A DNA stretch of 64,000 bases from contig CM076956.1 of assembly GCA_039566865.1 (NCBI GenBank), positions 5,777,511-5,841,510 on the forward strand. The letters run 5' to 3'. Under the pieces are notes generated by a model that worked only from the letters and a program-made list of their open reading frames with translations, did not search any database and was not told where the DNA came from. The stretch comes from Aurelia coerulea (Eukaryota > Cnidaria > Scyphozoa > Semaeostomeae > Ulmaridae). Shown here piece after piece: positions 14,846-64,000 of this stretch. Every line of letters starts with the position of its first letter. The stretch's first letter is position 1. The translations under genes were made by a program, and so were the position numbers.

Positions 14846-17122
14846 CTATAAAGAAGAACAAGTGCATGCGACGGGCACATTTTGTCTCTCATACCTCCAA
14901 ACTTGCATACCAGTACTTGTCAATCCATGAAATCTAACAACCATATACTCATAGATGATTTCCTCGCACGCTGGTCTACCATCACTCGACAAACAAGTGG
15001 TTCCTTGTCCGTTGCATACAGCCTTTTGAATTCTTGCTGGCAGACGGTTGGCTTCAAAGTTAACCACCCATGACACGGGGCAAGATGGGGTGACACTCCT
15101 TACCTTTCTTCGCAGACGGGAGTCCCTCGTCATGACGATGTTGGACAGCATATCAGAATCTGAAGGCACGCCTTTTTCTTTGAAATAGTCAGGTGGCGTT
15201 GCTCCTGAAGTCAGAGCTTCTGGCACCGTTGCATTGACTATTTCCCTTAATTCTGCAACGCTTGATACGTAGAATTTCTTCCCAACTTCAAACTTCAGGT
15301 TCAAATCGGGCACTTGCATAGGGAATGAGGCTGCAATGCTGACAAGTGCGACTAAGGCAACCAAGATTTCTGCCTGCAAGTAAAGGAAACACAAAATGTT
15401 ATCAGTGAAAACCAAATTGTTGAAAAAGCTCTCCCTAAATCCTTACGAAATGGAGAAAACGTGAGAAAATAAGCTTCCTAAACTCACGATAGAAAGTATG
15501 ACCTTCTTGGCTGCACAGCTTGCATCCCCTGTGCAGAAAGCCTTCCTTAGGCCATAATTCTCGCGGTGCCTTGCACAAACTAGCTAATCTTGACAAAGCT
15601 CAGCGCACTCCGATCTGAGAAACTACAGAGGGGAACAGCGTGAGCTCAAAACGGCCTAAAGATACCCCCTGATAATCGTAAAGCAATAATTACATCATTG
15701 CTAGCGCTAATCAAAATAAATCTGATGAAATCTTTGTGGATAGAAAATTAGGTAAACTGCCAAAATAAACAACCGTTCTTGTTTTTGAGTTGATTCTGAA
15801 AATAATGACATTCTGACCTTCAGGGTTCACAGCACAAAGAATTTTGCAGTATCAGCAATGACATTTGGGTAGCAGAAACTTAGCCATTAAACAGTTTCTA
15901 ATGGGTATCTGGAACTTCGATCAATAAGCATCAAATGATAACTACAGAGCAAGCATCTCTCGAATGAAAGTCTTTCATTTCGATGTGTTATGCTAAAAAT
16001 TGCAGCAAATTATTCGTGCAGATAAAAGCTTCTAAATGCAAAAACTTTTTCTAGAGATTTCAATTTATTCTGCAAAGAATCGTGTCCAATAAAGCTCAAT
16101 AAAATAAACAGCTTGAAGAGTACTTTGGTAAACAAGTGACGTAAAGTAAACAAATTGTTGTTGTGTTGTGCAAACAAGCCAAGCACGTGTGTTGTGGAAA
16201 AGGGGTGGGGTCCTAACGAGAATCCATTACTTTGCATTTAACCCGTCTCGTGGGTTGTGATGCGTGGGAAATGGTTGATCGTTAACTCAGTTTTGCTCAT
16301 GCGATCCCGGAAATCATTCCTGACCCCTCTGTGGAACGATCAGTCATTTCATGACATGCAAAATGTAATTTTTTTACACAAAATGTGAATAATCGACCAC
16401 CTTTCTAATTTCTTTTCATTATCAAAATAATTTTCTCCTAACTTGAAATTTTGTCAGAATATGATGATTTCATGCCTTCATGAGGTCATCCTTCAGAACC
16501 GCAGAAACCAACTACAAATGCTTTTCACAGCACGCCTAGGCCAAGGTGACAATATCAAAATTGACCCAATTCACATACTTTTATGTTGTCAGGGACAAAT
16601 AGCTGTAAAAACTTAAATCGTAGCTCAGAAACCTAAGTAGGGAGAACTGACTGGACGAAAACATCGAAAAGGGCAACAATTTTTATACGGTTGCATGTTA
16701 CCTATGCATTTGGCCTGCAACTGTTATTGGACTAAGACTTTGGTTTAATACGACTGAAGTATATGAACTCTTCAAGTAAAATAGCATACCAAGAGCTAGA
16801 GGATTATCTTGTACGAAAAATTTGAATCGAGTAGTTTTTGAAACATTTCTAATGCAAGAAGAAACCTAGCCTTTGCAGAAAACAATCAGATTATGAATGA
16901 AGAAGGAGGAAGCTCTGTTTGAAGAAAACATCATCTTATTTGATCGATTTTGGGAAATCTATGTGAAAAATTCCAAACACCTTTGCAAAGAAAATTAACT
17001 GTAAAATCAGTTCAGATATATTTTCCTTAGCCTGCAACGTAATGTTAAAACAAAAAAGAAATTAGTGTGCACAACAAAAAATGAAGCATTAGTAGACTAT
17101 TTACCTGAAATTTGAATGCCAT
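14846..17122 (-). CDS. IL17-like: IL-17-like cytokine precursor, gene 2 (two exons)
   Basis: Second IL-17 family cytokine, 181 aa. Exon 1 is 17,105-17,122 (MAFKFQ) with a GTAA donor; exon 2 is 14,846-15,373 after a TTGCAG acceptor; the join is phase 0 as in gene 1. The joined N-terminus gives a classic signal peptide (MAFKFQAEILVALVALVSIA then ASFP). A propeptide follows with one N-A-T site and basic residues RLRRKVRS before the mature part. The mature domain keeps CPVSWVV, RLPARIQKAVC, a W in the second half and the terminal VPVACTC, with the same six cysteines as gene 1. Unlike gene 1 it has no intron before the mature domain, so the furin region and knot share one exon. A TATA box lies at 17,340. 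Confidence 0.92.
15374..17104 (-). other. Intron 1 of IL-17-like gene 2
   Basis: 1.7 kb between the six-codon first exon and the main exon. AT-rich, and I saw no MITE end, LINE fragment or ORF of interest in it, in contrast to nearly all other gene-free stretches of this window. Confidence 0.6.
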
Positions 17123-46400: not shown

Positions 46401-49400
46401 ATAGATGTGCAGATGATATCTCTCACCCATGAGAAATTGCATTTTCTCTGTTGTTTTGAGCGAGGAGTCCTTTATCATTTGATCAAGCATTTTAGGCCTT
46501 TTTCAGTCATTTTGCAACCATCAAGTTTTTGTAAACTTGAATTAACCAATTTTTCCAGTGCTCGTAAGAAGGCGAGAAAAATCACAAAAATACTTCAATC
46601 TTTTGGCTGTCGAGCAAATATTGATTCATTCCAATCCATTCAGTACTCTTGATGCTATGAATTTTAAAAAGTGGGAACTTTTTTCTGGATCACCCAGTAC
46701 TTTATTCAATTCAGATTAAGATGTAAATATTTTACATTATTCAGTTTTTTACCTTCGTAATGATATGCAAATATTCAACAACAACAAGAATTTGAATGTG
46801 TAGGAGGGGTTTATAAAATGTGGAGCAGATTTTGTGTTACTTGGTAGATGGATTTGCTACACTTTCTGATAAAAAATGTTTATTTTATCACTTGCAAATA
46901 TTGTAACAAAAGTTATCAAAGCCAACAAAATTTTCTTTGTAACAAAAGTGATTTGGTCAATTTCCTTAGCAAAGATTGTCATGTGCAGTGAAGCACAACT
47001 TTTTGAGAAAAATTTTATCATGAGACTTTTACCATCGAATGTAACACATTAACAATTTTTTTGTCAAAAATTCGCAAAAATTATATATCTAAAAATACTT
47101 TCAAATAATTTTTACTTCCTTATTCTATTTTTACTTCCTTGTAACATACTGTTGGTACCAGAAGCATCAAGAGCGGAGTTTGGGGGGGGGTAATAAATCT
47201 GGGGCCCCAGCTTCAAAGGGGCCTGTAAAAAATCTGTACCTCACTATTGATTATTGCTAAAACTTCAAAGAAGAAAAACATACTGTAGTGTACACAAACC
47301 AATCACATCAGCCTTAAAGTCTTGAGACCTCCTCCTTCACTTTGTCATGTTTCATTCTGCTCTAGAACTTTCAGAGGAGTGCCATGATTTAGGAAAGGGT
47401 GACGGCTCTTGAGCCAAGGGCATGATGAATATTTTTGTAGACATGAAAGCTCTTGAAGGATTGTTTGAGTGAGTGCAAGCAAATTATTTATCAATACTTT
47501 TAATGTTGATAAGTGCAGCTTCTTTGCAAGACCTGGACATGAAATTCTGAACATTTTCCAAGAGCATTTTTTATAAAGGGTAGCTCCCTCATTTTCCAAG
47601 TGTCTCACAGAGGTGGTTTTGAAAAAGTTCATTGACACAACTTGGGTGTAGACCCTTGGAAAATGTGGTTTGGGACCCGAACTGGCCCTGGTTGGTACTG
47701 CAAAGGGATAAAGAACAAATATCTCAATGCATACCCTTTTCAGTTGGTGTCTCTCTAGCTGGTGCAACAGATCTACGACTTCTCGCAGGAGTTTTATCAG
47801 ATACCTTCTCTTCAAAGGCCTTCAAAACAGGGCACATTTCACCATTTCTCTTGAATCCAAATCTAACAAAATACTGTTTTTCAACCATATTCTTAGGTGG
47901 CTTATCCTTGATACCAATTTCATTAATAATGCAACGTGAATCAATAGTTTCAGCATCAATGTCTTCAATGCAACCAGCAAAGTAAGTTCCATCATTTTCA
48001 GGCAGTGGTTTGAATAGTTCTTTCTTGTGAAAGGAATGTGTTTTCATAAAATTTTTACATTTTGATGGAAGTTCATCAAAGCTAAAAAACCAACAAACTG
48101 TTGCCCTGCTTTGATCTTTCAGTCTTGGATGATTGTATAGTTTTCTGGTATTGCAAATATAAAATTCATTGTTCTCTCCTTTGATTGCCACATTGTCATT
48201 AAGATCAATGATCTGTCCATTGATTGAGCATGAACTGCAACAGAAAAAGGAACAAACTAAACCCTCCAAAACCAAGACAAAATGGGTTTGAGAAAGGATA
48301 GGCTGTATGGTTTGCAGGGATAGAATGGGTAGTGTTGCTTCCTGACCCTGAACTGATGAGTGGTTGTAGCTAGAGGAAAACTGTTAATAAAGATTTTAGC
48401 ACAAGTGTGTAAAGTATTTTGCCCTAATAAGGGTTTTTTACCAATATGTTTTACCCCCAAAAACTTATCAGTTTTACCCCAGCAGACCCTACACAGAAAA
48501 TTTTATATACCCTACCCTGAAAGATAAGTATGTTGCAAGACCTATGTTGCAAGATTCTAACCTCCAAGCAGCTGGATTACTGGTGCAAGCTAGCTATTGA
48601 GTACTTATAGATACGCTGCTTGAACCGGACAGCAACCTATAAGGTGCTAAAATTGAGAGGATTAAAACATGCCACTGTGGTCTAGTGGTTAAGGCGCTTG
48701 CCCGGAAAGCAGGAGATCCGTGGTTCGATTCCCGGTGGTGGTAAGTTTTAATTTTCTTGATTTTTCTGATAATCTAAAAATGTTTAAGTTTGCACCGAAA
48801 AAAGGAGAAATCCTGGTTGCTCGCTAGCTATTGAGTACCTACCCTAAAAGATATGTTCCTATGGAATTTAGGAAGTTGGGAATTGGCGCATGCCACCACA
48901 CTCATTTGACTACACAACAACAATTAAGGGCCATCGACTTTCGATTTTCGTATTTTTTTAAGGCATTTGGCCATTAAGGTCGGAACCCCCACCCCTTCCC
49001 CGTTAACGGCCTTCTACCAAAGTTTCTCCGACCGGCCTAAAATTTTAGGCCTAAGTAAGATGTTGGGAGCAGCAATATAGGTCTTGTAGAACTCAGCTGG
49101 ACTTCAACAGAAGATACGCCATAAATGAGGTAAAGTAAAACTGTTTTATTCTACATTTAGCATTATTTGTGAAGTTGTTTATCCACGTTTTTCAAACAAA
49201 TTCCCTTTCCGAGATTTCCGTACGATTTTCATTTTCTTAACGGCCTAAGGCAAAACCCCTTCTCTCCATAACGGCCAAATGCCGTTAAAAAATTCGAAAA
49301 TCGAAAGTTGATGGCCCCTTATATTTTGGATAATACATTCATACACGCGTACATTATCTATTTATCAATGCAGGTAATCTAAATGGCAGCTTTCACTGAT

Positions 49401-51214: not shown

Positions 51215-52080
51215 CAATAGACCATTCGCCAATTAGGAAAAAGGGATTGAGGCGAGCGCGGCCAATTCCGACAGCCCTAGTAACATCGGGGAATCCTCTC
51301 CACTTCAGAATATCTTATTCGATGTATTTCCCAAAATCGATTTGTAGAGTAGGGCACATAAACAAACGATCAGCTGATATGACCCCTTACTTCAAATGTA
51401 ATAAGTCCAGAACTTGGGAGAAAATTTTGAAAAATCAGCGAAAACTGGCCGATCGTCTTGGGCTGATTCTGAAGTGGATAAATCGAGAAACTGAAAACAA
51501 ACTTTTGGAGGACCTTATTTCAACCCTTTTTAAGGTATTTAATAATTAATCCAGGGTTAGCAAGTGCATTTAGTACGAAAGCGAGCACGATCCGTTTGGA
51601 TGGAAAAAGGGCCTAAGTGGAAATTTTCGGGATTTTCTCCACAGCTTTGAAAAAAGAAAGGCTCGTTATTCTGCGAATCTTAGAGATAAATTCGAGATTG
51701 ATGGTGTCTAAGTGAAGAATACGGTTTCTCGTCGATTTTTGACATGCCGAGGCCGTTTACCGCTCGCAAAACGGAGTTACGGCCCAAAAAGGGGTAGGCC
51801 AAAATTTTTCCCAATTTTCGCGGCCCTCGCGCTCCGCCCCTGGGAGCAATATTGAACCCCAAATTCGTGATAAGACTCACAAACGAGTTATCTCCTGTAA
51901 ATTTTTTTCTGTTTTCAAATTAGTTGAGTAACCATCGAGCATCGGCTCCAAATGCAGCTTCAGGTCAGAAAATCGGGCCGGGTCGGCTTGCCGATTATAC
52001 TGTAATGGAGAGGACTCCCCGGATTTCCGACTGTTACTAGGGCTGTCGGAATTTTTTCTTAATTGGCAAATGGTCTATTG
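51215..52080. mobile_element. TIR element inserted only in duplication unit 1
   Basis: Ends CAATAGACCATTCGCCAATT and AATTGGCAAATGGTCTATTG are inverted copies, with AATTCCGACAGCCCTAGTAA and its inverse inside. Unit 2 lacks this block. The 214-codon ORF at 50,905-51,549 crosses its left border and is therefore not a gene. Confidence 0.75.
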
Positions 52081-52235
52081 CGCTAAAGATGGCGGCGACG
52101 AATTCTTTACCAAGATGCACTGCGTCTGCGTTCTTTAATCGAATTCCTATAGAATCGTTAAAGAATCTTAACTAGAACGCAATGCATCTTGGTAAAAAAT
52201 TCCTCGCCGCCATCTTTAGCGCAATCGTCTATTGG
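52073..52235. mobile_element. Palindromic MITE, about 160 bp
   Basis: CTATTGCGCTAAAGATGGCG at the left is inverted at the right (CGCCATCTTTAGCGCAAT). ACCAAGATGCACTGCGT is likewise mirrored by ACGCAATGCATCTTGGT. It overlaps the right end of the preceding element and is absent from unit 2. Confidence 0.75.
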
Positions 52236-52856
52236 AGGTTGTGGTGAATTAAAGAAGGCATGGTGTACTTCATTTGAGATTTGATCATAGATAGTTTATG
52301 TCTTTATGGAGCCTGTGCCTGGTACAGGCACTGGGTACAGGTACCTCTAGCAAAAATTTGCTAAATGCTGTTGTCTGCTCCGTATTCATATGAAAACGGA
52401 TAAAAAAGTATCCGTTTATCGCAATGCGTTCACACTGCACCACCATGAAAACAGAGACTTTTGAAAACGCACTTTGAAAACGGAGACTTTTGAAAACGCA
52501 AAAACGCAGTGTGAACACCGAAAACGCAAAAACGGATAACGCTAACAACAACAACAACTTAACAACATACTTAGTGCACGTCATTTGAACAACTTCTCTC
52601 AACATTTCTGACTCATTCGAAAGTATAATGCTTTGTAATGCTTTTGCGCCTAAACCCCCAACTTCAAAGAGAGGCGGTGGTCTCGTTTTCATAGCAGTTT
52701 CTTTTTCATCCTGAGCGGAGCAATGTGAACGCTTCATCGTTTATGTTGCGCTTTCAAATTAACCCAGTGCAATATGAACAGGTAAAACGAAAGCGAAATC
52801 ACGAGGAAACAGGGAAACATGGGAGGAAGGAAAGAAGAGAGCAGCATGGAGTCCCC

Positions 52857-52903
52857 TAGCCTGTGTTCCAGACCACTTTCCAAGTGGTCTGGAACACAGG
52901 CTA
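52857..52903. mobile_element. 47-bp perfect hairpin insertion with 9-bp target duplication
   Basis: TAGCCTGTGTTCCAGACCAC, a short loop, and its inverse ending CAGGCTA. GGAGTCCCC is duplicated exactly at 52,848-52,856 and 52,904-52,912. The matching site at about 61,760 in unit 2 is uninterrupted (ATGGAGCTCCCCTTGCA), so this is an insertion that followed the duplication. Confidence 0.9.
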
Positions 52904-53058
52904 GGAGTCCCCTTGCACTCCCCAAATCTGGCGAAATTGGATTGTGGACCAAGTTTGCAAATTCCTACCTTGGGTACCAGAAACCCCCTCCCCCTCCCCT
53001 AAAGAGGGTCTGGGCCTCATCTGCGAATTCTGTTAAACTTTTTTATTTTTGCAGATCG

Positions 53059-56000
53059 ATGAAATTGGGATATTTCATAGCAGGCCTAGCCTGCCTGCTT
53101 CCTCTAGCCCTCGCAGAGGAGCACGATGGGCGAATAAGCTGCAGAGCAACACCAGCATTGAAAGCAGATGGAGAGGATTTAATAGGACGTGGTAATGTCA
53201 CAGTGTTGACATTGCTCAAATCCAGCTGATCCTACTGTCGACTGCAGGCGCGCCTTCTCATGAAAATGAAGGCTAAACTGCAGGCAATGTAAGTAAAAGT
53301 AAAAGCATATGTCATTTCGCGCTGTTTATCAAAGCCATGCCGCAATAAGAACCTGCAAAATAGAAGTTTATCAGCCTGGTTTCTATTTTGTGGGTTCTTT
53401 CTGTACATAGAGATGCATCATTCCCTCATTGCTAGGCCCGTGCGAAACAGGGGGCAAGGGAGCGCCCCCAATAATTTTGAAAACAATATTTTACATCACG
53501 TGAATTAATTAGATGTATTGTTCTCTGTTGTTTTGAGAACAAAAGCCTCCCAATCAGCAGATGCTTCCCTACTGCCCTGCTCATTACTCTCGCGAAATAA
53601 AAGTAAATGAACCGACTTACTCTCAGAGCTTAGCTGGGAAATTGGGGAAATCTAAATAAGGCCCGCCCATCACATTTATTTTACTCGATAGATAAAACAA
53701 AAAGGAACTATGATGTCCTAGCTGAATGACATTTCAGGATTTAACCACGTGATTAAGATAGTTTACGCCCCTTATGCTATGCTGAGAGTCATCCTAATTA
53801 GTGTAGACTTAGTGCCCCTTTAATAACTCAACAAAGTGAGACTCACAATGTAAATCATTCCAATTGTTATCAACATTTTACAACAACAACAACAACATCA
53901 CCTACTCTCAAGTACCGAATAAACGGGGGGGGGGTGAGAATAATCGGGGGGGTTGGAAATGGTTCAATATGATAATAATCGGGGGGGTTAGAACAATCGG
54001 GGGGGGTTGGAAAAATTGAGAATAGTCGTTTTTCGTTTTCTTAGTAAAACACGCATCTAACATGGGTACCACGTATGTAAAACACGTATGTAACACGGGT
54101 CAGACAAACAAAGGAGAATAAAGTTAATAAATATAGTAAGTACATTTGCTTAGCAGGAATTATTAAAAAAGTTATGTTCACTATTATTTCTATTTTTCAA
54201 GAATTAATAAAAGGGGGTTGGAATAAAAGTGGGGGGGTTGGTACCCTGGGTACCAGCCTCTCTGTTTTTATGTTAGAGAGGCTGGTACCCAGGGTAGGGG
54301 GTTGGAAAATTTTTCAAAAATTAATAAGCGGGGGGGACGATTATTCGGTACTTGAGAGTATGTTTGAGTCTATGAGTCTTTGCTACTCCGCAGTGGCTTG
54401 GTTGTGCGCAATTGTTCGTGCTGTAAAAAAGGAATGGAGTCAAAACATTGGGACAAGTAGAGGTAGCCGAACCAAATACTGTAAAACCAGTAATTAGGAT
54501 TTGATTCTGGAGAAAACCTATAATCTGTTTCCCGATATCTCCTAGCTATCCATGTATCTATCTATGTACCTATCTATGTTATAATGCAGAAAATGTCATG
54601 TCTACCTATTTATCTGCCTCTATAGGCACAAATTTGATTCCAGTCCGAAAAGAACCATTGACACCCAGGGTCCTTTGCGAGCTTGCTAAAATCAACATTG
54701 GCCTGAGCAGAAACCATGGATCCACACTGCAGTAGTTGAACCATGGTCAATAGAAGCAAGGTGGTTGAACTAATAGAAAAGTTAACCAAAATCAAACTAT
54801 TCTGGCAGTTGAATTACTGCAATCTGAATCCATGTTTTCTGGCAGAAAGCATACAAAGGACCCTGGGTCAAAAACTTTATTTCTTACTCGTCTATTGAAC
54901 TGAATGGCTTTACCTATTTATTTATTGAATTGAAGTGCTAGCTAAATTTAACACGAATTGTAATCAGTCCAAGCAGATTCGGTGATTTTAAGAGATCAAT
55001 GTTTTCATCTCATATCAGGAACATAACAGGAATTTCTTATGTTATTGTAAACTTGAAAAAAGCAGAAAAGTCCAAGCACCTCCTCGAGAACATAGTTGAC
55101 TTTAAAGTATATCAAGATAAAACTGGAGACATTTGGAAGATGTTGAATGGCAGCAAAGATGACTTCTACATCTACAATCGATGTGGCGTTTTGTCTGATT
55201 ATGTGCCAAAAAGCAAGAGTTATCTTGGAAAGAATTATGTCAAGTAAGTGTTCTCATAGTTACACCGAGTAATGAGTAAGAAAACGCATCCACTGTTGGA
55301 ACATTCTTGAAAATGCTCGTGAATAAAAAATATTCAATCGTTTTGTATGAGTAATTTTGCGTTATCGCAAATTTCACGTGACACCTAATTTGAAACAGAT
55401 TGATTCAAAAAATACATATTCTATGGCTTAACTGATGCTTGGATTTAATTTCTGGAATGATTTATAATCTACCTTGTACATCAACAAACTATCCTCTTTC
55501 AACAAGCCATGATGAACTGTGCACTGGACCGATTCCAAAGATCTAAGACTTCATATTTAGCTAAAATCCAGTATTAGATTCAAGGACTGTGCTTTGTCAA
55601 ATTGTACATTTTCTCTCGCAGGCAGGCACTCTTTAAAGCTTACATTGGAGGACATGGATGTGCAAAATGTGAAGCAGGTACGGAAAGGGAAATCAATCAT
55701 TTTCTGATTATTTCATTCTCAAAATAGCAGTTGCATCTTAGGCTTTTTAACCTTGATTGATTATCTTGGTCTCTTGTATCCTTGCGATGCACCTAGACTG
55801 ATTACCCAAGTCCTTTCTATTCTGGACTTACCCAAGTGACTTAGGCAAGTCCATTTCTATTCCTGCGATAAACCTCGCTCAACTTGCTCAACAACTGTTG
55901 ACCGAAGCGACATCATTAAGTCAATGAGAACGGGGAAACAAGGGATTCCACGTCATAAGTCTACGGAACACCTTGCTCATCAGGGACTCATAATGGACAA

Positions 56001-58102
56001 ATGAAAGCTAATTCTTAGCTATCTCCTTACAGAAACGAACTGCAGAAAAAACCATTCACCAAACTGTGTAACTGTTAATGAAAAAAAGTGTAGCATACGT
56101 AAATGTCAGGGGCGGATCCAACCTGGAAAGAGGGAGCCGAAAGTACCACAGAAAGTTTTTAGAATCACATTTGAAAACATTCTTTGGTTTTTCTACTAAA
56201 AAGGCCTTAATTTATCTGATTTATATGTTTCCTCCACATGCAGATCGAAACAGTTGAAAAAGAGTGCGTTTGGGTGAGGATAAGGGACGCTCTTCTCGCC
56301 AAAAAGGGGGCACCAAGCTGAGTTTGCATCCTGAAATGCCCACCCCTACATCCTCCACTCGTAAGTGTCGAATGAAGACTGAGTCTCAATGAAATTCCCC
56401 AAATCTTGTGAACTGAATGCTGTATCTCTTAACATTCATAGATGCACCGTACCACAAAATTTACAAGAAGCTGGTAGCTCCAACGAAAGCGGCATGCTTG
56501 AATACTGCTAAATATGATCAGCACTGCGGATATTGGGCTGGCAAAGACTTGTGCAAAAAAGGGAACAAATATTATGGCTTTATGACTGATCACTGCAGAA
56601 AAACATGCAAATTTTGTACAGGTATGAATAATGCTGTAGGGAGATCTGTTTGTTTTATGCTGCGGCCTATCCGGTTTGTATGCAAGTAGATAGTACCGGG
56701 GGTGAGTAAAATGTAAGTTAACACGTTTGGTTGGCTGTGGAATAACAAGTATTCGGCCGATATTCAATAATAACATGTTTGTCCATCAGCCAAAGGTTAA
56801 CTTAGATGTGAACATTTTTTTGGTAAAACGAGAATTCAACATTCATTTCTGGTCCATGATTTGCCATTGATATCTTAATTCAATACAATTGTCAGCTTCA
56901 GATAGACTGATTACGATGAGTCCCAGTGATCGCTATTCAAAACGAGACTATTACACCAGACCGAGACCGCTCATACTGGGACTCATATTATTACGGCAAT
57001 ATTTTTGGACTGACTTTTTTCACTTTTGAACGCCCTTTGGAACGAGGCTGCTATACACAGTCATGTACAAAGTATACAACAAAATACAACGCCATTAGAA
57101 TTTCTGCAAATTCGATTGATTGATGTTGACCAACGGAAACTCGAAGCTCAAAGCAGAGTTTCAGGGAGCTTGGCCGGACAGAACAAAGTCTTACGAACAA
57201 GAATATACCATGCGAAAACAGTTGGCGACAATATCAAATCTTGTACGCAGGTACTATTTTGCTGCTTTCGCTAAGCATTAACTGATTTATTGTGAAGTTT
57301 TCAAATCAATGTGTTTCATTTGAAAACTACAAATGTTTGTGCTTTTCTGCCTAGGCCCTTATCGAAACGAGGCAGTCATAGTCATTTCAAAATAATGGCG
57401 TTTGATTATGAGTCGTAGTTAGGAGCGTCCGGCAGTATTTCAATAGCGATAACTACGACCATATCATCAGTCTAAGCTTCAGAAGTAGATTGTACAGATT
57501 TTGGAACGTTTGAAATATTGTCATCTTTGTGACAAATCACAGGATATGAAAGTTGATTTGATCAGTGTCATTCAAAAATACTTAGAGCATGTTGCAGTTG
57601 CCCAACGTGATTCTGAAGTCACACAGGACTAAACTGCAGATAATAACTTTAAAAGAACTGGCAATACTTGACTGATTAACATCGCTGGCGGTTATTGGTT
57701 ATTGGAACAGATTTTTTAGATATAGCCGGCAGAGTGAAGTAAAATCAATCGAAATTTATTAAGTCTGGAAGATCAATATGTGGAGTTGCACTCTGCTTGA
57801 TAAAGGACTTGTTGTGGAGACGAGATACGCTTCCCCCGAGGAAACCCATGATTCCCCCGTGCAGTAGGTTAAAGCTCATGCGCAGTAGCACTTTGGGGTT
57901 GAAGCTCTGACGGCCGCATGCGCTTTAACCCACTGCACGGGGAACACGTTAGTTTCCTCGGACAAAGCGATCTCGTCTCCCCAACAAGGACTTTGTGAGA
58001 AGAGCATTTGCTATATTTCCAAGGCTAATGCATACCCGATATGTTAATGAAAAATTATCCTCTTTTCTAGATTCTGAAAACAAATTGAAGCAGATGTGGT
58101 AG
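53059..58102 (+). CDS. SELENOP-like: Selenoprotein P-like secreted protein with Sec and ShKT domain
   Basis: Predicted secreted thioredoxin-like selenoprotein, 240 aa. Coding exons: 53,059-53,288; 55,019-55,243; 55,622-55,677; 56,442-56,621; 58,071-58,102; phases 2,2,1,1 all match. The acceptor TTTTTGCAG at 53,054 implies a 5' UTR intron. Residues 1-19 are a signal peptide. TGA at 53,227-53,229 (residue 57) lies in S-S-U-S-Y-C, the U-x-x-C redox motif of selenoprotein P; reading stays open after it up to a perfect donor. Exon 2 reads NITGISYVIVN, then VYQDKTGDIWKMLNGSKDDF and YNRCG, matching the selenoprotein P thioredoxin-like domain. Exon 3 adds C-A-K-C. Exon 4 is a ShKT domain with Cys 189, 199, 208, 222, 226 and 229. 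The short last exon (stop TAG 58,100) is the least certain; unspliced, the frame would stop at 56,689. There is no long Sec-rich tail. A SECIS candidate follows at 58,207. Confidence 0.85.
53227..53229 (+). other. In-frame UGA read as selenocysteine (Sec57)
   Basis: TGA within TCCAGCTGATCCTACTGT. The codon aligns exactly with the TGT (Cys59) at 62,093-62,095 in the tandem copy and with the first Sec of vertebrate selenoprotein P (U-Y-L-C). Downstream codons remain conserved between the copies, which argues against a plain nonsense mutation. Confidence 0.85.
53903..54360. mobile_element. MITE with TACTCTCAAGTACCGAATAA ends in SELENOP-like intron 1
   Basis: Left TACTCTCAAGTACCGAATAA, right TTATTCGGTACTTGAGAGTA, exact inverse. 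Interior has G-rich GGGGGGGTTGG units. It is itself interrupted by the hairpin at 54,242-54,296. Confidence 0.85.
54242..54296. mobile_element. 55-bp hairpin insertion with 9-bp target duplication
   Basis: Begins TACCCTGGGTACCAGCCTCT and ends AGAGGCTGGTACCCAGGGTA. GGGGGTTGG flanks it on both sides (54,233-54,241 and 54,297-54,305). It is nested in the MITE at 53,903-54,360. Confidence 0.82.
56442..56621 (+). other. ShKT-domain exon of the SELENOP-like gene
   Basis: Sixty residues of exon 4 with six cysteines spaced C-x9-C-x8-C-x13-C-x3-C-x2-C, the ShKT pattern, including the aromatic and glycine positions (CGYWAGKDLC). ShKT domains are common as extra modules in cnidarian and nematode secreted proteins; nothing here marks it as a toxin. 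Confidence 0.88.
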
Positions 58103-58206
58103 ATGCAGAGGAGGACAGGATCTTTATTTCATTCTTCTTTCAGAAGGTCTTATAGTTTACGTCAAAGTCGTTGAATCTTAGCTCAGTAAAAAATATGCAT
58201 GTCTCA

Positions 58207-58266
58207 TTGGTACTCATGATAAACCCTAGTTAAATCAGTCTAGTGTTTTGAAATACTCTGTACTGA
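58207..58266 (+). promoter_or_regulatory. SECIS element candidate in the 3' UTR
   Basis: Helix I: TTGGTAC (58,207-58,213) pairs with GTACTGA (58,260-58,266). The non-Watson-Crick core is ATGA (58,216) opposite TGAA (58,249). Helix II: AAACCCTAG (58,221-58,229) pairs with CTAGTGTTT (58,240-58,248) with one mismatch. The apical loop TTAAATCAGT carries AAA, 12 bases after the UGA of the core. This is the eukaryotic SECIS layout and it lies 105 bases after the stop codon of a gene with an in-frame UGA. Confidence 0.78.
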
Positions 58267-59110
58267 CCACGGGCTATAGGAAACTCTGAAGCAGAAACGT
58301 AGATACATCGAGACAATCATAATTTAAGTTTTCTCTCTGTCTCTGCCTATCCTGTGAAGGCCCTATTTTCATCCCCGCGCAAATTGACGTGATCTTGAGG
58401 GCCCTGGGGCAATTATGTCAGTCAGACGAGAACTCCTTGAATTTGCAGCGCGTCGGGATTAGAAGTCAGGAACGAAGTAAACCGCAAGTCTCTATGACCA
58501 TATTTCTAATTCAGAGTTTTCCTGCAGCCCGTGCAATGAGGTGTGTATGTTTCTATTCGTAAGAAAACTCCGTACATGGTGCTGTCTGTATACTACTAAG
58601 TACATAAAGTTTTATGGAATTACTTGTACTTATGATGGACTTTTGTTGAAAGTTGTAACGAATGTCTTGATAATTTGCCGTACAAAGATGTTGTTCTATT
58701 GACATATAATATACTATTGATATACATACAGCTATTCGTACAAACTCAAATGTTGCTTTGCTTGTTTCAAAGTCTACTGATGGAAATTCCTATTTTGGTC
58801 TGTATCAAAGTGACTAAAATGCTATGCCTTCCCTTGATCTTTGCCATGCTTGAGTGAAGCCGTCGCCAATTTCAGTTCTTAATTTCGATGTGCTTCAGGA
58901 ACTTGCCTAGACCAAAAGGTTGAAAAGGCCAAAGCTCTGGTTTGCAGGTTGACGCAAATTTGAGCTTTCAAGATTGATATTTCTGCTCTCAAAGCACCAA
59001 TATCTACAAACGAGGTATCTATGTTCAAGTTAACTATCGAGGAGCATTTTGAGATTACCCATAATGAAAGCTCAATTCACATCGCTGGAGTCGACCAAAT
59101 CTGTTTAGTT
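58267..59110. other. Flank 3' of the SELENOP-like gene
   Basis: Probably the rest of the 3' UTR and intergenic sequence. No gene recognised. A Tc1-type MITE right end (TTTTTTGGGACACCCGG) ends it at about 59,127. Confidence 0.4.
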
Positions 59111-59145
59111 TTTTTGGGACACCCGGTTCAATCATGGGTATTGTG

Positions 59146-60207
59146 GACACGATTTGTGTCGATCGTGTCCACAATACCTGGCCTAAATGTTACTAAATGA
59201 ATGAATGTAGTTCGTTACCTTGCTCGTCTTCATTTCATGAGAATCTTTGCTCTCTTGCCTCGGCAGCCTTTCTTGCTTACTCAAGTTCATAACGGCCTAA
59301 GGTTTTTGAACAGTGCCGCGCTCTAAACTAGTTCCCAGATCGCCGCTGCCCTGGAACGACCTAGACTTATGACGATGAGTCCCTTGTATCCCTGCGGTAC
59401 CTTGCTCACAGGGACTCATAATGAAACAGTTAAAAACCTGACCCTATCTTCAGCATTCGATTGATCGAATCTGGATCGAACGACTGCTTCGGCTCTGTTC
59501 AACGGTCACTCCTCAGAAAGGAAATGCGATAGAAACCACGGGAAGCAGACTCTTAATTAACGAAACTTGGTATTCATCTGAAGAAGAAAGTTCACTTTAC
59601 CTGGTGAGTGCAAAATAAGTCTTTTAATGCTGCAATTTCCATGTTTTTAAGACCAAAACATTGCAGAGAAATCTTCAAGTACCTGCTGCAGCAACTTCCT
59701 TCAAATTTAGTAAGCTGCGTCAATCGAATCGAAGGTTCGAAACTTATTGTTCTTCGCCAAATCTCGCATTCTGATTGGTATGCTAGGAATCCCAGCATAT
59801 TAGGCCTAATAGGGTCAGGTTTTTCAGAGTAATATTATGAGTCTCTGTTGACTGAAGCGCCATCTTGAAGTCAAAGAGCACAAGGAAACAAGAGACTCAT
59901 CGTCATAAGTCTAGGAACGACCTCGCTGTAAACTAGTTCCCAGATCGCCGCTGCCCTGGAACGATGAGTCGTTCCAGGGCAGCGGCGATCTGGGAACTAG
60001 TTTAGAGCGCGGCACTGTTCAAAAACCTTAGGCCGTTATGAACTTGAGTAAGCAAGAAAGGCTGCCGAGGCAAGAGAGCAAAGATACTCATGAAATGAAG
60101 ACGAGCAAGGTAACGAACTACATTCATTCATTTAGTAACATCTAGGCCAGGTATTGTGGACACGATCGACACAAATCGTGTCCACAATACCCATGGTTCA
60201 ATTCTAC
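59146..60207. mobile_element. Foldback element with a nested MITE
   Basis: Left ATGGGTATTGTGGACACGAT and right ATCGTGTCCACAATACCCAT are inverted. Each end also contains its own small hairpin around GTGTCGATCGTGTCCAC. Flanks GGTTCAATC and GGTTCAATT suggest a 9-bp duplication with one change. The arms share AGTTCATAACGGCCTAAGG and GATCGCCGCTGCCCTGGAAC and their inverses. It is split by the element at 59,362-59,913. Confidence 0.82.
59362..59913. mobile_element. MITE with 9-bp target duplication (TAGACTTATGACGATGAG), copy 2
   Basis: 552 bp, ends TAGACTTATGACGATGAGTC and GACTCATCGTCATAAGTCTA, exact 9-bp duplication GGAACGACC at 59,353-59,361 and 59,914-59,922. Closely similar to the copy at 11,446-11,986 over its whole length. 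Confidence 0.88.
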
Positions 60208-60526
60208 AGTTTAAATAAGAAGTTATGCGGAACCTTTTGGGAAAATTAACCAATAAAATGTTGAGGTACTGGTACCCAGGTTATCTGATTGTGGGCTGAT
60301 CGATAATCGAATGACAGGGTGGCGTTTTACAGCGAAATGATACAAATTTTGAAATCAGAAATTAAAGTATGACACATCAACAAATCATGTAATGGTATCT
60401 GGGATTCAGGAAAGCATTTTGCCAAATTTCATATTGACTGAGTGCAGGTGAGGCAGGTGAGATAGGTGAAGGTGAAGGTGAAGTTGCGTTTTTCAGCGCC
60501 AAGCGCTGGGATCGCAGAAATAGAGC

Positions 60527-60600
60527 AGACCCTAATCGAGTCCGCGACCCCTGTTCTGGCTGCAAAGTCAGAGGATTACACCACTGCGCCACAACACCTT
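60527..60600 (-). repeat. tRNA-derived SINE head
   Basis: Minus strand has an intact box A (TGGCGCAGTGG) and a decayed box B (GGACTCGATTAG), framed by GGTGTTG at the start. Next to it, on the tail side, lies a TTCACCTTCACC-type short repeat (60,460-60,482). It looks like a SINE remnant rather than a working tRNA. Confidence 0.5.
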
Positions 60601-60609
60601 CGGCGCAAG

Positions 60610-61914
60610 TAGGGTTAAAGAACTTTGGCTTCAAGGGCTCTGCAGGACATGGATTGTGTAAACAATCAACCATCTGTTTTATATCGCTTTACCTATCACA
60701 GCACTTGACAAACGATGAACACAATTCATTGTAGCTGGGACGTGAGCTGAAATGGAAAGGTAAGAAATTTTTACACATTCTTTCAGAGCATAAGCTACTT
60801 TTCAAGGATGTTGAATTGTAGAATTATACTTATTTCTTCAAAAAACTAAGGTCGGAGGCTGGTAAGTAGTTTCTGAAATTCTAGGACAGTTTTACTACCA
60901 AAAGTTCATATGAATTTCTTGTATTTCTGATGCCGGAAGTGTAGAGTTACTTTTTACAGTAGTTACGTTTGATATAAAATAGACAAGACATGAAATACCG
61001 ACCAATAACTCTACCAAATTTTGTACTCATGTACACCAATATTTTTATCAATTTTGGCTCCGAACGCATGTACCCCCATCTCTCTGCACAAAAATTTAAT
61101 AATTGGACTTGTACTCAAATCGTGTATGACGTTTTGGTTCATTTTCGTATTGTTGGGTTGATCTACAAATGCTGTTTCATTTTGCATGCCTGTCATTCCA
61201 GCATATATTTGGTTCTTTGTTTTGTTACTCTCTGGTTTGCCTTCACCCCTGACTTTATCCTGTCAGTATTCGAGTGTTTCTGAACTTCGAGCCTTCGAGC
61301 CTCGAGCCTTGTGTTTCGAGCCTTGTGTTTCGAGCCTTTGAGCCTTCGAACCTTGTGTTGCAAGCCTCGTTTTATATCATGGGCCAACAGACCTCGATCT
61401 TTTAACTTTGTCTTAGTATACCCGTATTTTCTGTGAGAAACTTAGGCCCGGGGTTGGCAGTCAGTTTCTTGAATTTTAGGCCATTTTTGATACTGTCAGT
61501 ATTCCCTCTTATCGTCTGCAATCTTTGTAGTTTGAGAGTCTCTCTCTCTCATCCCTCATGTCATGTAAGTTTCAATTGGAGGACGGTGAATAACGTAGGC
61601 ATGGTGTTAGGTGTACATCAGTTGATCATAGATTGTTTATGAAGTAGGGGCCTGTGCCTGGTACCTCTTGCAAAAATTTGCTCATGACTTTGTCTAATAA
61701 TTGTAGCGAAATCATAAGGCAACATGGAAACATTGGAGGAAAGAAAGAAGAGAGCAGCATGGAGCTCCCCTTGCATTCCCAAATCTGGCAAAGTGATTGG
61801 GTTGTGGACCTAGTTTGTAAATTTTTACCTTGGGTACCACTGCCAGAATCCCCCCCCCCCAAAGAGGGCCTGGGCCTCATCTGCAAATTCTTTTCAACTT
61901 GTTTATTTTTGCAG
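60610..61914. repeat. Left part of the tandem segmental duplication, unit 2
   Basis: Matches 50,410-53,054 in blocks (GGCTTCAAGG, GTACCCCCATCTCTC, TGTTGGGTTGATC, GAGAGCAGCATGGAG, CAAATCTGGC) and lacks the 51,215-52,235 and 52,857-52,903 insertions. It leads straight into exon 1 of the second SELENOP-like gene. Confidence 0.8.
61286..61372. repeat. Minisatellite of CGAGCCTTGTGTTT units
   Basis: Five to six imperfect copies of a roughly 15-bp unit (TTCGAGCCT plus TGTGT). It is present in unit 2 only; the corresponding place in unit 1 (about 51,155) lacks it. Confidence 0.75.
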
Positions 61915-61918
61915 ATCA

Positions 61919-63490
61919 ATGAAGCTGGGATATTTCATAGCAGGCCTAGCCTGCCTGCTTCCTCTAGCCCTCGCAGAGGAGCACGATGGGCGAATAAGAT
62001 GCAGAGCAACACCAGCACTGAAGGCGGATGGAGAGGATCCAGTCGCAAAAGCACGTGGTGATGTCATAGTTTTGGCATTGCTCACATCAAGCTGTTCCTA
62101 CTGTCAACTGCAGGCGCGCCTTCTCATGAAAATGAAGGCTAAACTGCAGGCAATGTAAGTAAAAGCGCATTTCATACGCTGTTCATCAAAGTGTATTGTT
62201 TTTTCATGTCAGAGTCTTTGCACCTCCGCAGTGGCTTGGTTGTAGAAAAGGAATGGAGTGAAAACATTGGGACAAGCCCGAGGAGGGGTGAGGGGTACTT
62301 CACATATTTTGGGTATTGGGACGTGCCATCGGGAAGGGTATCGATTTTCGGGATTTTGGCAAAAGTAACGGTATCGATTTTCACGATTTTCGTATAAGGA
62401 ACGGTATCGATTTTTGCGACTTTGGTATAAGTATAAGGTCGGATATACATTTTTGGAAAAATGGTATAAGGTCGAGTATACTATACTTTTTCGGAAAATT
62501 GGTGTAAGGTCGGGTATACTTTTTCGGAAAATTGGTATAAGGAACGGGTATGTCTTTGAAGCTTTAATGGCACGTCCCCTACCAAAACCTGGTCAAGAAC
62601 CCCACCGGGGGGACAAGTAGAGGAAGTAGCCTGACCAAATACTGCAAAACAAGTGTTTATGATTTGATTCTGGTCAGTGTGAGCGATGTCTCCTAGCTTG
62701 AATCTATCTACTGTGTGTTATAATGCAGAAAATGTCATGTCTACCACTTTATTTGCCTTTAAAGGCACAAATTTGATTTCAATCTGAGCAGAACCATTGA
62801 CACCCAGGATTCTTTGCGAATATGCTAAAATTTCAGACTTTCTTAAATCAAATTTGGCCTAAGCGGAAACCATGAATTGACACTGCAGTAATTGATTTAA
62901 TAGAAAAGTCAACCAATTCTGGCATCGGCGTAGGGGGAAATAAAATTTGGGGGGGCTGCCCGATAAAAAATCCATTGTTTAAGAAAATTTTGCCCGACTT
63001 AAGGCGGATTTCTGCCCGATTATGGCTGATCTTTGCAAAATTTTCCGACGCTGGGGGGGCTGAAGCCCCCCTTTGCCCCCTGTCTCCTACGCCTATGTAT
63101 TCTGGCAGTTGAATTACTGCAATGTGAATCCATTTTTCTGGCTAGGCCAAATTTGATTTTTAGACCGTTTGAAATAGCAGAAAGCACGCAAAGGACCCCG
63201 GATGACTATGGCTCTTTCAGAGCAATCTGCAATTTTAAGAGATCAATATTTTCATCTCATTTCAGGAACATAACAGGAGTTTCTTTCATTATTGTCAACT
63301 CGAAAGAGGCAGACATGTCCAAACACATCTTCGACAAACTAGTTGACTTTAAGGTTTATCAAGATAAAACTGGAAACATTTCGAAGGTGTTGAATGGCAG
63401 TAGAGATGACTTCTACATCTTCAACCGCTGTGGTATTTTGTCTGATTATGTGCCAGGAAGCAAGAGTTATCTTAGAAAGAATTATGTCCA
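61919..63490 (+). CDS. SELENOP-like: Selenoprotein P-like paralogue with Cys in place of Sec (partial)
   Basis: Tandem copy of the gene at 53,059. Exons seen: 61,919-62,154 and 63,266-63,490, with the same splice phases (2,2) and the same 225-base exon 2. The acceptor TTTTTGCAG precedes the start codon as in copy 1. The first 25 residues, a signal peptide, are identical to copy 1 (MKLGYFIAGLACLLPLALAE). The redox motif is C-S-Y-C, with Cys59 coded by TGT at 62,093. Exon 2 keeps VYQDKTGNISKVLNGSRDDF and FNRCG. Exons 3-5 (C-x-x-C, ShKT, last exon) are not in the window; the last 500 bases hold a foldback element. As a Cys form it would not need a SECIS. Likely a secreted thioredoxin-like protein. 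Confidence 0.87.
62330..62560. repeat. Degenerate tandem repeat in intron 1 of the Cys paralogue
   Basis: Repeated GGTATCGATTTTCG and GGTATAAGGTCGGGTATAC units in several diverged copies. The short ORFs here are made of this repeat. A similar motif, GAAGGGTATACTTTTT, occurs near 18,397 and 18,432. Confidence 0.7.
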
Positions 63491-63683
63491 GTAAGTGTTC
63501 TTATAGTTATACCGAGTGAGCGTAAGAAAACGTACCCACTGTAACAAGGGCAGATTTTGTAATACAATAACACGAGTTGCTTTTGTTGACACCTCAATTC
63601 AAAGCGATTAGCGATCACAGACAAAGGAAATTCTCTCAACCAGTAATTCAAAACAAACAAAGCCGCAAAAGTTTCTCTGAAAC

Positions 63684-64000
63684 CCGGGTAGCTAGCTCGC
63701 TCGCTGTGCATTCCAGAAATTATTTATAAGGGCAAACATGAGCATAGATCGAAAGAAGAAGGATATACCTACACATCTGCCGCGGGCATTTTATTTCTTT
63801 GGTCCAGGAGCTGAGCAGTAAATGTTTTGATAACACCCTAAAAAATAAGAGAATTGAATCGCCTCCTAGACAGCTTTTGAACCAAACAAATAAAATGCCC
63901 GCGGCAGATGTGCAGATGCATCCTTCTTCTTTCGATCTATGCTCATGTTTGCCCTTAAAAACAGTTTCTGGAATGCACAACGAGCGAGCTAGCTACCTGG
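63684..64000. mobile_element. Foldback element reaching the window end
   Basis: The left arm starts GGGTAGCTAGCTCGCTCG and the right arm ends CGAGCGAGCTAGCTACC. AGCATAGATCGAAAGAAGAA is mirrored by TTCTTCTTTCGATCTATGCT, and CACATCTGCCGCGGGCATTT by AAATGCCCGCGGCAGATGTG. It lies in intron 2 of the Cys paralogue and has no counterpart at this place in copy 1. Confidence 0.85.

Follow-up and report, generated by a model that had tools for sequence, protein, structure and literature searches.

Organization of the tandem pair

Two selenoprotein P (SelP)-like genes lie in tandem on the forward strand of the window, the stretch of 64,000 nucleotides analysed here. They differ in the codon for the first position of their redox motif, which is TGA in gene 1 (U-S-Y-C, if read as selenocysteine, Sec) and TGT in gene 2 (C-S-Y-C). 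A first-pass annotation of this DNA had placed both codons, as well as the two start codons (ATG at 53059 and 61919), exactly where they are found (Table 1).

Table 1. Coordinates of the two SelP-like genes and of the candidate SECIS element in the window
Feature	Positions	Strand	Remarks
Gene 1, whole	53059-58102	+	Five predicted coding exons, 240 amino acids
Gene 1 exon 1	53059-53288	+	U-S-Y-C motif, preceded by a presumed signal peptide; phase 2 GT donor at the 3′ border
Gene 1 TGA	53227-53229	+	Codon 57, in frame, predicted selenocysteine
Gene 1 exon 2	55019-55243	+	AG/GT borders, phase 2 to 2
Gene 1 exon 3	55622-55677	+	Ends in C-A-K-C-E-A; within the SelP_N match
Gene 1 exon 4	56442-56621	+	ShK domain, six cysteines
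Gene 1 exon 5	58071-58102	+	Predicted terminal exon; ten codons and a TAG stop; acceptor and phase fit
Candidate SECIS	58209-58264	+	Predicted 3′UTR of gene 1; Rfam RF00031 (SECIS_1) and pattern scan
Gene 2 exon 1	61919-62154	+	Presumed signal peptide and C-S-Y-C
Gene 2 TGT	62093-62095	+	Codon 59, displaced by an upstream insertion of two residues; Cys codon matching the TGA of gene 1
Gene 2 exon 2	63266-63490	+	Last exon found before the window end at 64000

The predicted introns of gene 1 have GT/AG borders throughout and compatible phases, and its reading frame runs open before and after the TGA across the five predicted exons. Analysis of predicted exons 2-5 revealed no further in-frame TGA after codon 57. 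The signal peptide was judged by eye from a hydrophobic stretch ending in A-L-A before E20. Exon 5, as predicted here, is the least certain exon of the gene. Neither AATAAA nor ATTAAA was found downstream of gene 1 between 58100 and 60252.

The first-pass annotation, which is silent on exons 3-5 and the ShK domain of gene 1, had described the same exon borders and phases in both genes. This could be followed over the two comparable exons, with a phase 2 GT donor after exon 1 and an exon 2 of 225 nt. For gene 2, tblastn detected no counterparts of exons 3-5 before the window end, and its remaining matches to SelP in the window, outside the two genes (E 5.6 to 9.7), did not exceed chance.

Between the genes, the segment 59127-60201 carries inverted terminal arms of 234 nt, 98% complementary and 607 nt apart, and looks like a non-autonomous DNA transposon. 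Another inverted repeat (63684-64000; arms of 130 nt, 90% complementary, 57 nt apart) lies just 3′ of gene 2 exon 2. The 34 Rfam matches obtained in 52000-64000, mostly to microRNA families and below gathering scores, were treated as palindromes: several lie on inverted repeats (52069-52233, 59921-60012 and the repeat 3′ of gene 2), and others are palindromic by eye. Two palindromic stretches with Rfam microRNA matches below gathering scores, 57810-57986 in gene 1 intron 4 and 52848-52912, are absent from the inverted-repeat list, which covers arms of 40 nt or more.

Elsewhere in the window, a tRNA-Ser (GGA) gene was found at 48670-48744 on the plus strand, and two ORFs match the interleukin-17 domain, one at 14849-15442 on the minus strand (E 3e-08) and one at 2390-2722 on the plus strand (E 1.1e-06), the latter also with a Spaetzle match below cut-off. 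Of the 27 stop-to-stop ORFs of at least 110 amino acids, 20 were scanned, and apart from these two none gave a Pfam match at E up to 0.01. The gene content suggests an animal, and the two interleukin-17 ORFs, together with the ShK domain, would be compatible with a cnidarian.

Domain composition and family assignment

Both proteins match the Pfam SelP_N domain (PF04592), gene 1 with an E value of 2.7e-24 over residues 27-175 and the gene 2 fragment, comprising the first 153 residues, with an E value of 1.6e-20 over residues 26-142, which places the homology of the pair far above chance. Over the shared first part, the scores are 77.4 bits for gene 1 and 73.9 bits for gene 2, a difference that is not telling. 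Gene 1 further carries a C-terminal ShK domain (PF01549; E 1.2e-05, 26.2 bits versus a cut-off of 20.9, residues 196-229), with six cysteines in this region at positions 189, 199, 208, 222, 226, and 229. Pfam matches to AhpC-TSA were weak and below cut-off.

Sequence searches of the PDB returned nothing meaningful for gene 1, whose single match had an E value of 0.99, and no match at E up to 0.01 for the human domain. A profile built from the two copies gave three weak matches (E 0.66 to 0.82), two of which are thioredoxins. Among viral contigs, 88 stretches fitted the search pattern for relatives and none was confirmed; the same held for 216 stretches in prokaryote genome contigs.

The designation "selenoprotein P-like" in the first-pass annotation thus applies to both genes as regards SelP_N. 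However, gene 1 does not count as a typical SELENOP of the selenium-carrier kind, since it has a single Sec codon, neither a Sec-rich tail nor a His-rich stretch (at most one His per 10 residues in the predicted protein), and an ShK domain at its C-terminus.

A candidate SECIS element and the reading of the TGA codon

In fish SelP, as described in PMC6301783, the N-terminal Sec lies in a UxxC motif encoded by the first coding exon. Of the two genes, only gene 1 has such a U-x-x-C, its TGA lying in exon 1; gene 2 has CxxC.

A candidate SECIS element, with its core ATGA at 58216, AAA at the apex, and a 3′ TGAA, begins 107 nt beyond the predicted stop of gene 1. If exon 4 is read unspliced, the frame would end at a stop in intron 4, which also lies upstream of the candidate, so that the placement of the candidate is independent of exon 5. 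Its RF00031 score is 17.2 bits, well short of the gathering score of 35, and its E value, computed over 4227 families in 731 bases (58070-58800), is 2.7, which by division corresponds to about 6e-4 for SECIS_1 as a single family. No SECIS family reached its gathering score in the whole 64-kb window, and none was retrieved at E 10 in 52000-64000, a search too strict even for this candidate.

A scan with a SECIS pattern, designed when the candidate was already known and not involved in its Rfam score, gave two full matches on the plus strand (58216, and 55319 in gene 1 intron 2) and none on the minus strand. From 60 random sequences of 64 kb, generated under a first-order model, the expected number of full matches is 0.0009 per 700 nt and 0.08 per 64-kb strand; given the two matches on the plus strand, this expectation is probably too low. 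The fold of the candidate is not unusually stable, with z values of 0.1, 0.5, and 0.8 for three cuts, each against 300 simple shuffles, and free folding produced the SECIS shape from the shortest cut only, the two longer cuts folding otherwise.

The UxxC site, the open frame, and the SECIS_1 match point toward a reading of the gene 1 TGA as Sec. The Sec/Cys exchange between tandem SelP-like paralogues, the central claim of the first-pass annotation, is supported by SelP_N in both copies and by a TGA at the Sec site of the family, together with a SECIS match that stays below threshold. A sequencing or assembly error, for which a single base would suffice, could also have turned a TGT into this TGA. 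Yet gene 1 possesses a SECIS candidate too, and at a known Sec site (PMC6301783) a TGA is expected rather than odd; we give such an error hardly any credit.

Divergence of the two copies

Gene 1 and gene 2 are the products of a tandem duplication. Their proteins are identical at 79.7% of 153 aligned positions, Sec being entered as Cys. Comparison of 52000-58900 with 60200-64000 by blastn revealed nine segments, 68-96% identical, one of which lies in opposite orientation; two cover the shared exons, and the others correspond to upstream or intron 1 DNA. Exon 1 together with about 155 bp upstream shows 87% aligned identity between the copies, three segments farther upstream show 73, 89, and 96%, and the intron 1 patches range from 68 to 96%.

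Over the 153 aligned codons of the two shared exons, Ks is 0.213 (0.169 in exon 1 and 0.275 in exon 2) and Ka is 0.093, giving a Ka/Ks of 0.43. The excess of silent changes, which counts in favor of the model proposed below, was evaluated by Fisher tests on rounded counts and has a p value of 0.007 for the whole and 0.025 for the part before the exchanged codon. After this codon, Ka/Ks is 0.52 and the excess is not significant (p 0.074).

The two genes are genuine paralogues that have diverged to a moderate degree. The first-pass annotation had called them a recent tandem pair that catches the switch in progress: the tandem duplication stands on blastn and homology, "recent" has to be qualified in view of Ks, and a switch in progress does not agree with paralogues as diverged as these. 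A haplotype duplication posing as a tandem pair also appears unlikely, since the Ks seems too high for two alleles.

The absence of significant constraint after the TGA, taken alone, would suit a gene 1 that is a decaying copy, whose TGA arose as a plain nonsense mutation; a single TGA is also what such a mutation looks like, and the SECIS candidate scores under the Rfam cut-off. Against decay, the sole internal stop sits exactly on the Sec codon of the family, the SECIS match is in the expected place, and no damage is seen in any of the five predicted exons, at their splice sites, or among the six cysteines of the ShK domain. We therefore regard decay as a very doubtful account of gene 1, and retain a TGA that is probably read as Sec.

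Direction of the exchange

The pair itself cannot settle which state is ancestral. In thioredoxin and AhpC-type relatives, Cys is the usual residue, which would count for a Cys ancestor in this lineage, with gene 1 having gained Sec through a TGT to TGA change and a SECIS element. The weak AhpC-TSA matches below cut-off lean the same way, as do the columns in which gene 2 carries the human residue. The latter were obtained by an outgroup comparison with one human sequence, in which 12 of the 29 differing columns are informative: gene 1 matches the human residue in 8 of the 12 and gene 2 in 4. With a p value of 0.39, this comparison does not decide the direction, and the larger share siding with gene 1 is a non-significant argument against a Cys ancestor.

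A Cys ancestor would moreover require a new SECIS element besides the codon change, and the SelP genes described in PMC3473315 and PMC6301783 have Sec at this site. N-terminal Sec is present in fish SelPa and SelPb (PMC6301783), and the three N-domain repeats of amphioxus SelP all carry it (PMC3473315). Since published SelP genes carry Sec at the N-terminal site, we favor Sec as the ancestral state, with a probable change from Sec to Cys (TGA to TGT) in gene 2, and consider the reverse direction unlikely.

Proposed activities of the two proteins

Gene 1 probably encodes a secreted, thioredoxin-like selenoprotein with a single Sec, and gene 2 would be its tandem copy, in which Sec was replaced by Cys. 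In this model, the SelP N-terminal thioredoxin-like domain of the gene 1 product would hold the only Sec, in its U-x-x-C motif, and would be followed by the C-terminal ShK domain. The UGA would be decoded as Sec by means of a single SECIS element, whose core follows some 665 nt later in the mRNA. The protein would most likely act as an extracellular redox enzyme whose UxxC motif forms a selenenylsulfide, rather than carry selenium in bulk, given the single Sec and the lack of a Sec-rich tail and of a His-rich stretch. The ShK domain may place the protein or bind a partner.

In gene 2, the change from TGA to TGT would give a C-x-x-C motif that needs neither selenium nor a SECIS element. If the 3′ half beyond the window is intact, its product would act as a Cys version of this enzyme, independent of selenium supply. 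As a tentative history, we propose that a SelP lineage without the Sec-rich tail, whether lost or never acquired, joined an ShK domain and then split into Sec and Cys forms of a secreted enzyme.

If this is true, Sec-based and Cys-based forms of the active site coexist in one animal. Such a tandem pair, whose proteins also differ at about 30 other aligned positions, would allow a direct comparison of Sec and Cys in one animal and would bear on the long-standing question of why some proteins keep selenocysteine where cysteine seems enough. A single-Sec form with an ShK tail also bears on the origin of the selenium carrier SELENOP from a plain redox protein.

Comparison with known selenoproteins

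Among six invertebrates surveyed in PMC3473315, SelP was reported in just two, amphioxus with four genes and Lottia with one, and so not in Nematostella. Among four corals, PMC11639872 describes SelP_N as restricted to Seriatopora and Favites; as the list given there includes fungal-like genes, this coral SelP_N is possibly contamination. No ShK-tailed SelP was found among the matches listed from open-licence papers, which weakly suggests that a single-Sec SelP ending in ShK is a new architecture.

Gene 1 shares with SELENOP and SelPa the SelP_N domain, the UxxC motif in the first coding exon, and a presumed signal peptide. It differs from them in its C-terminal ShK domain, in having neither a Sec-rich tail nor a His-rich stretch, and in the one SECIS candidate found, versus usually two elements in vertebrate SelP (PMC3316567); for salmonid SelPa2, just one SECIS was predicted (PMC6301783). 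SelPb of fishes and other vertebrates has in common with gene 1 a single N-terminal Sec, as in zebrafish SelPb; its description in PMC6301783 is of a Sec form and mentions no ShK domain.

The amphioxus SelP cluster (Bf.SelP_a, 3NSelP) also consists of tandem invertebrate genes, one copy of which is without C-terminal Sec (PMC3473315). Unlike gene 1 and gene 2, the amphioxus copies vary in domain number and in the Sec codons of the tail, not in N-terminal Sec versus Cys, and two SECIS elements are described for them (PMC3473315).

A parallel for the exchange itself is offered by the mammalian duplicates GPx3, GPx5, and GPx6, in which Sec was replaced by Cys after tandem duplication, GPx5 having arisen in this way from GPx3 (PMC3316567); these belong to a selenoprotein family other than SelP. 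In vertebrate selenoproteins as a whole, 12 conversions to Cys were counted (PMC3316567). The Sec/Cys switch is thus known in other selenoprotein families, and is found here in an unusual SelP-like gene that ends in an ShK domain.
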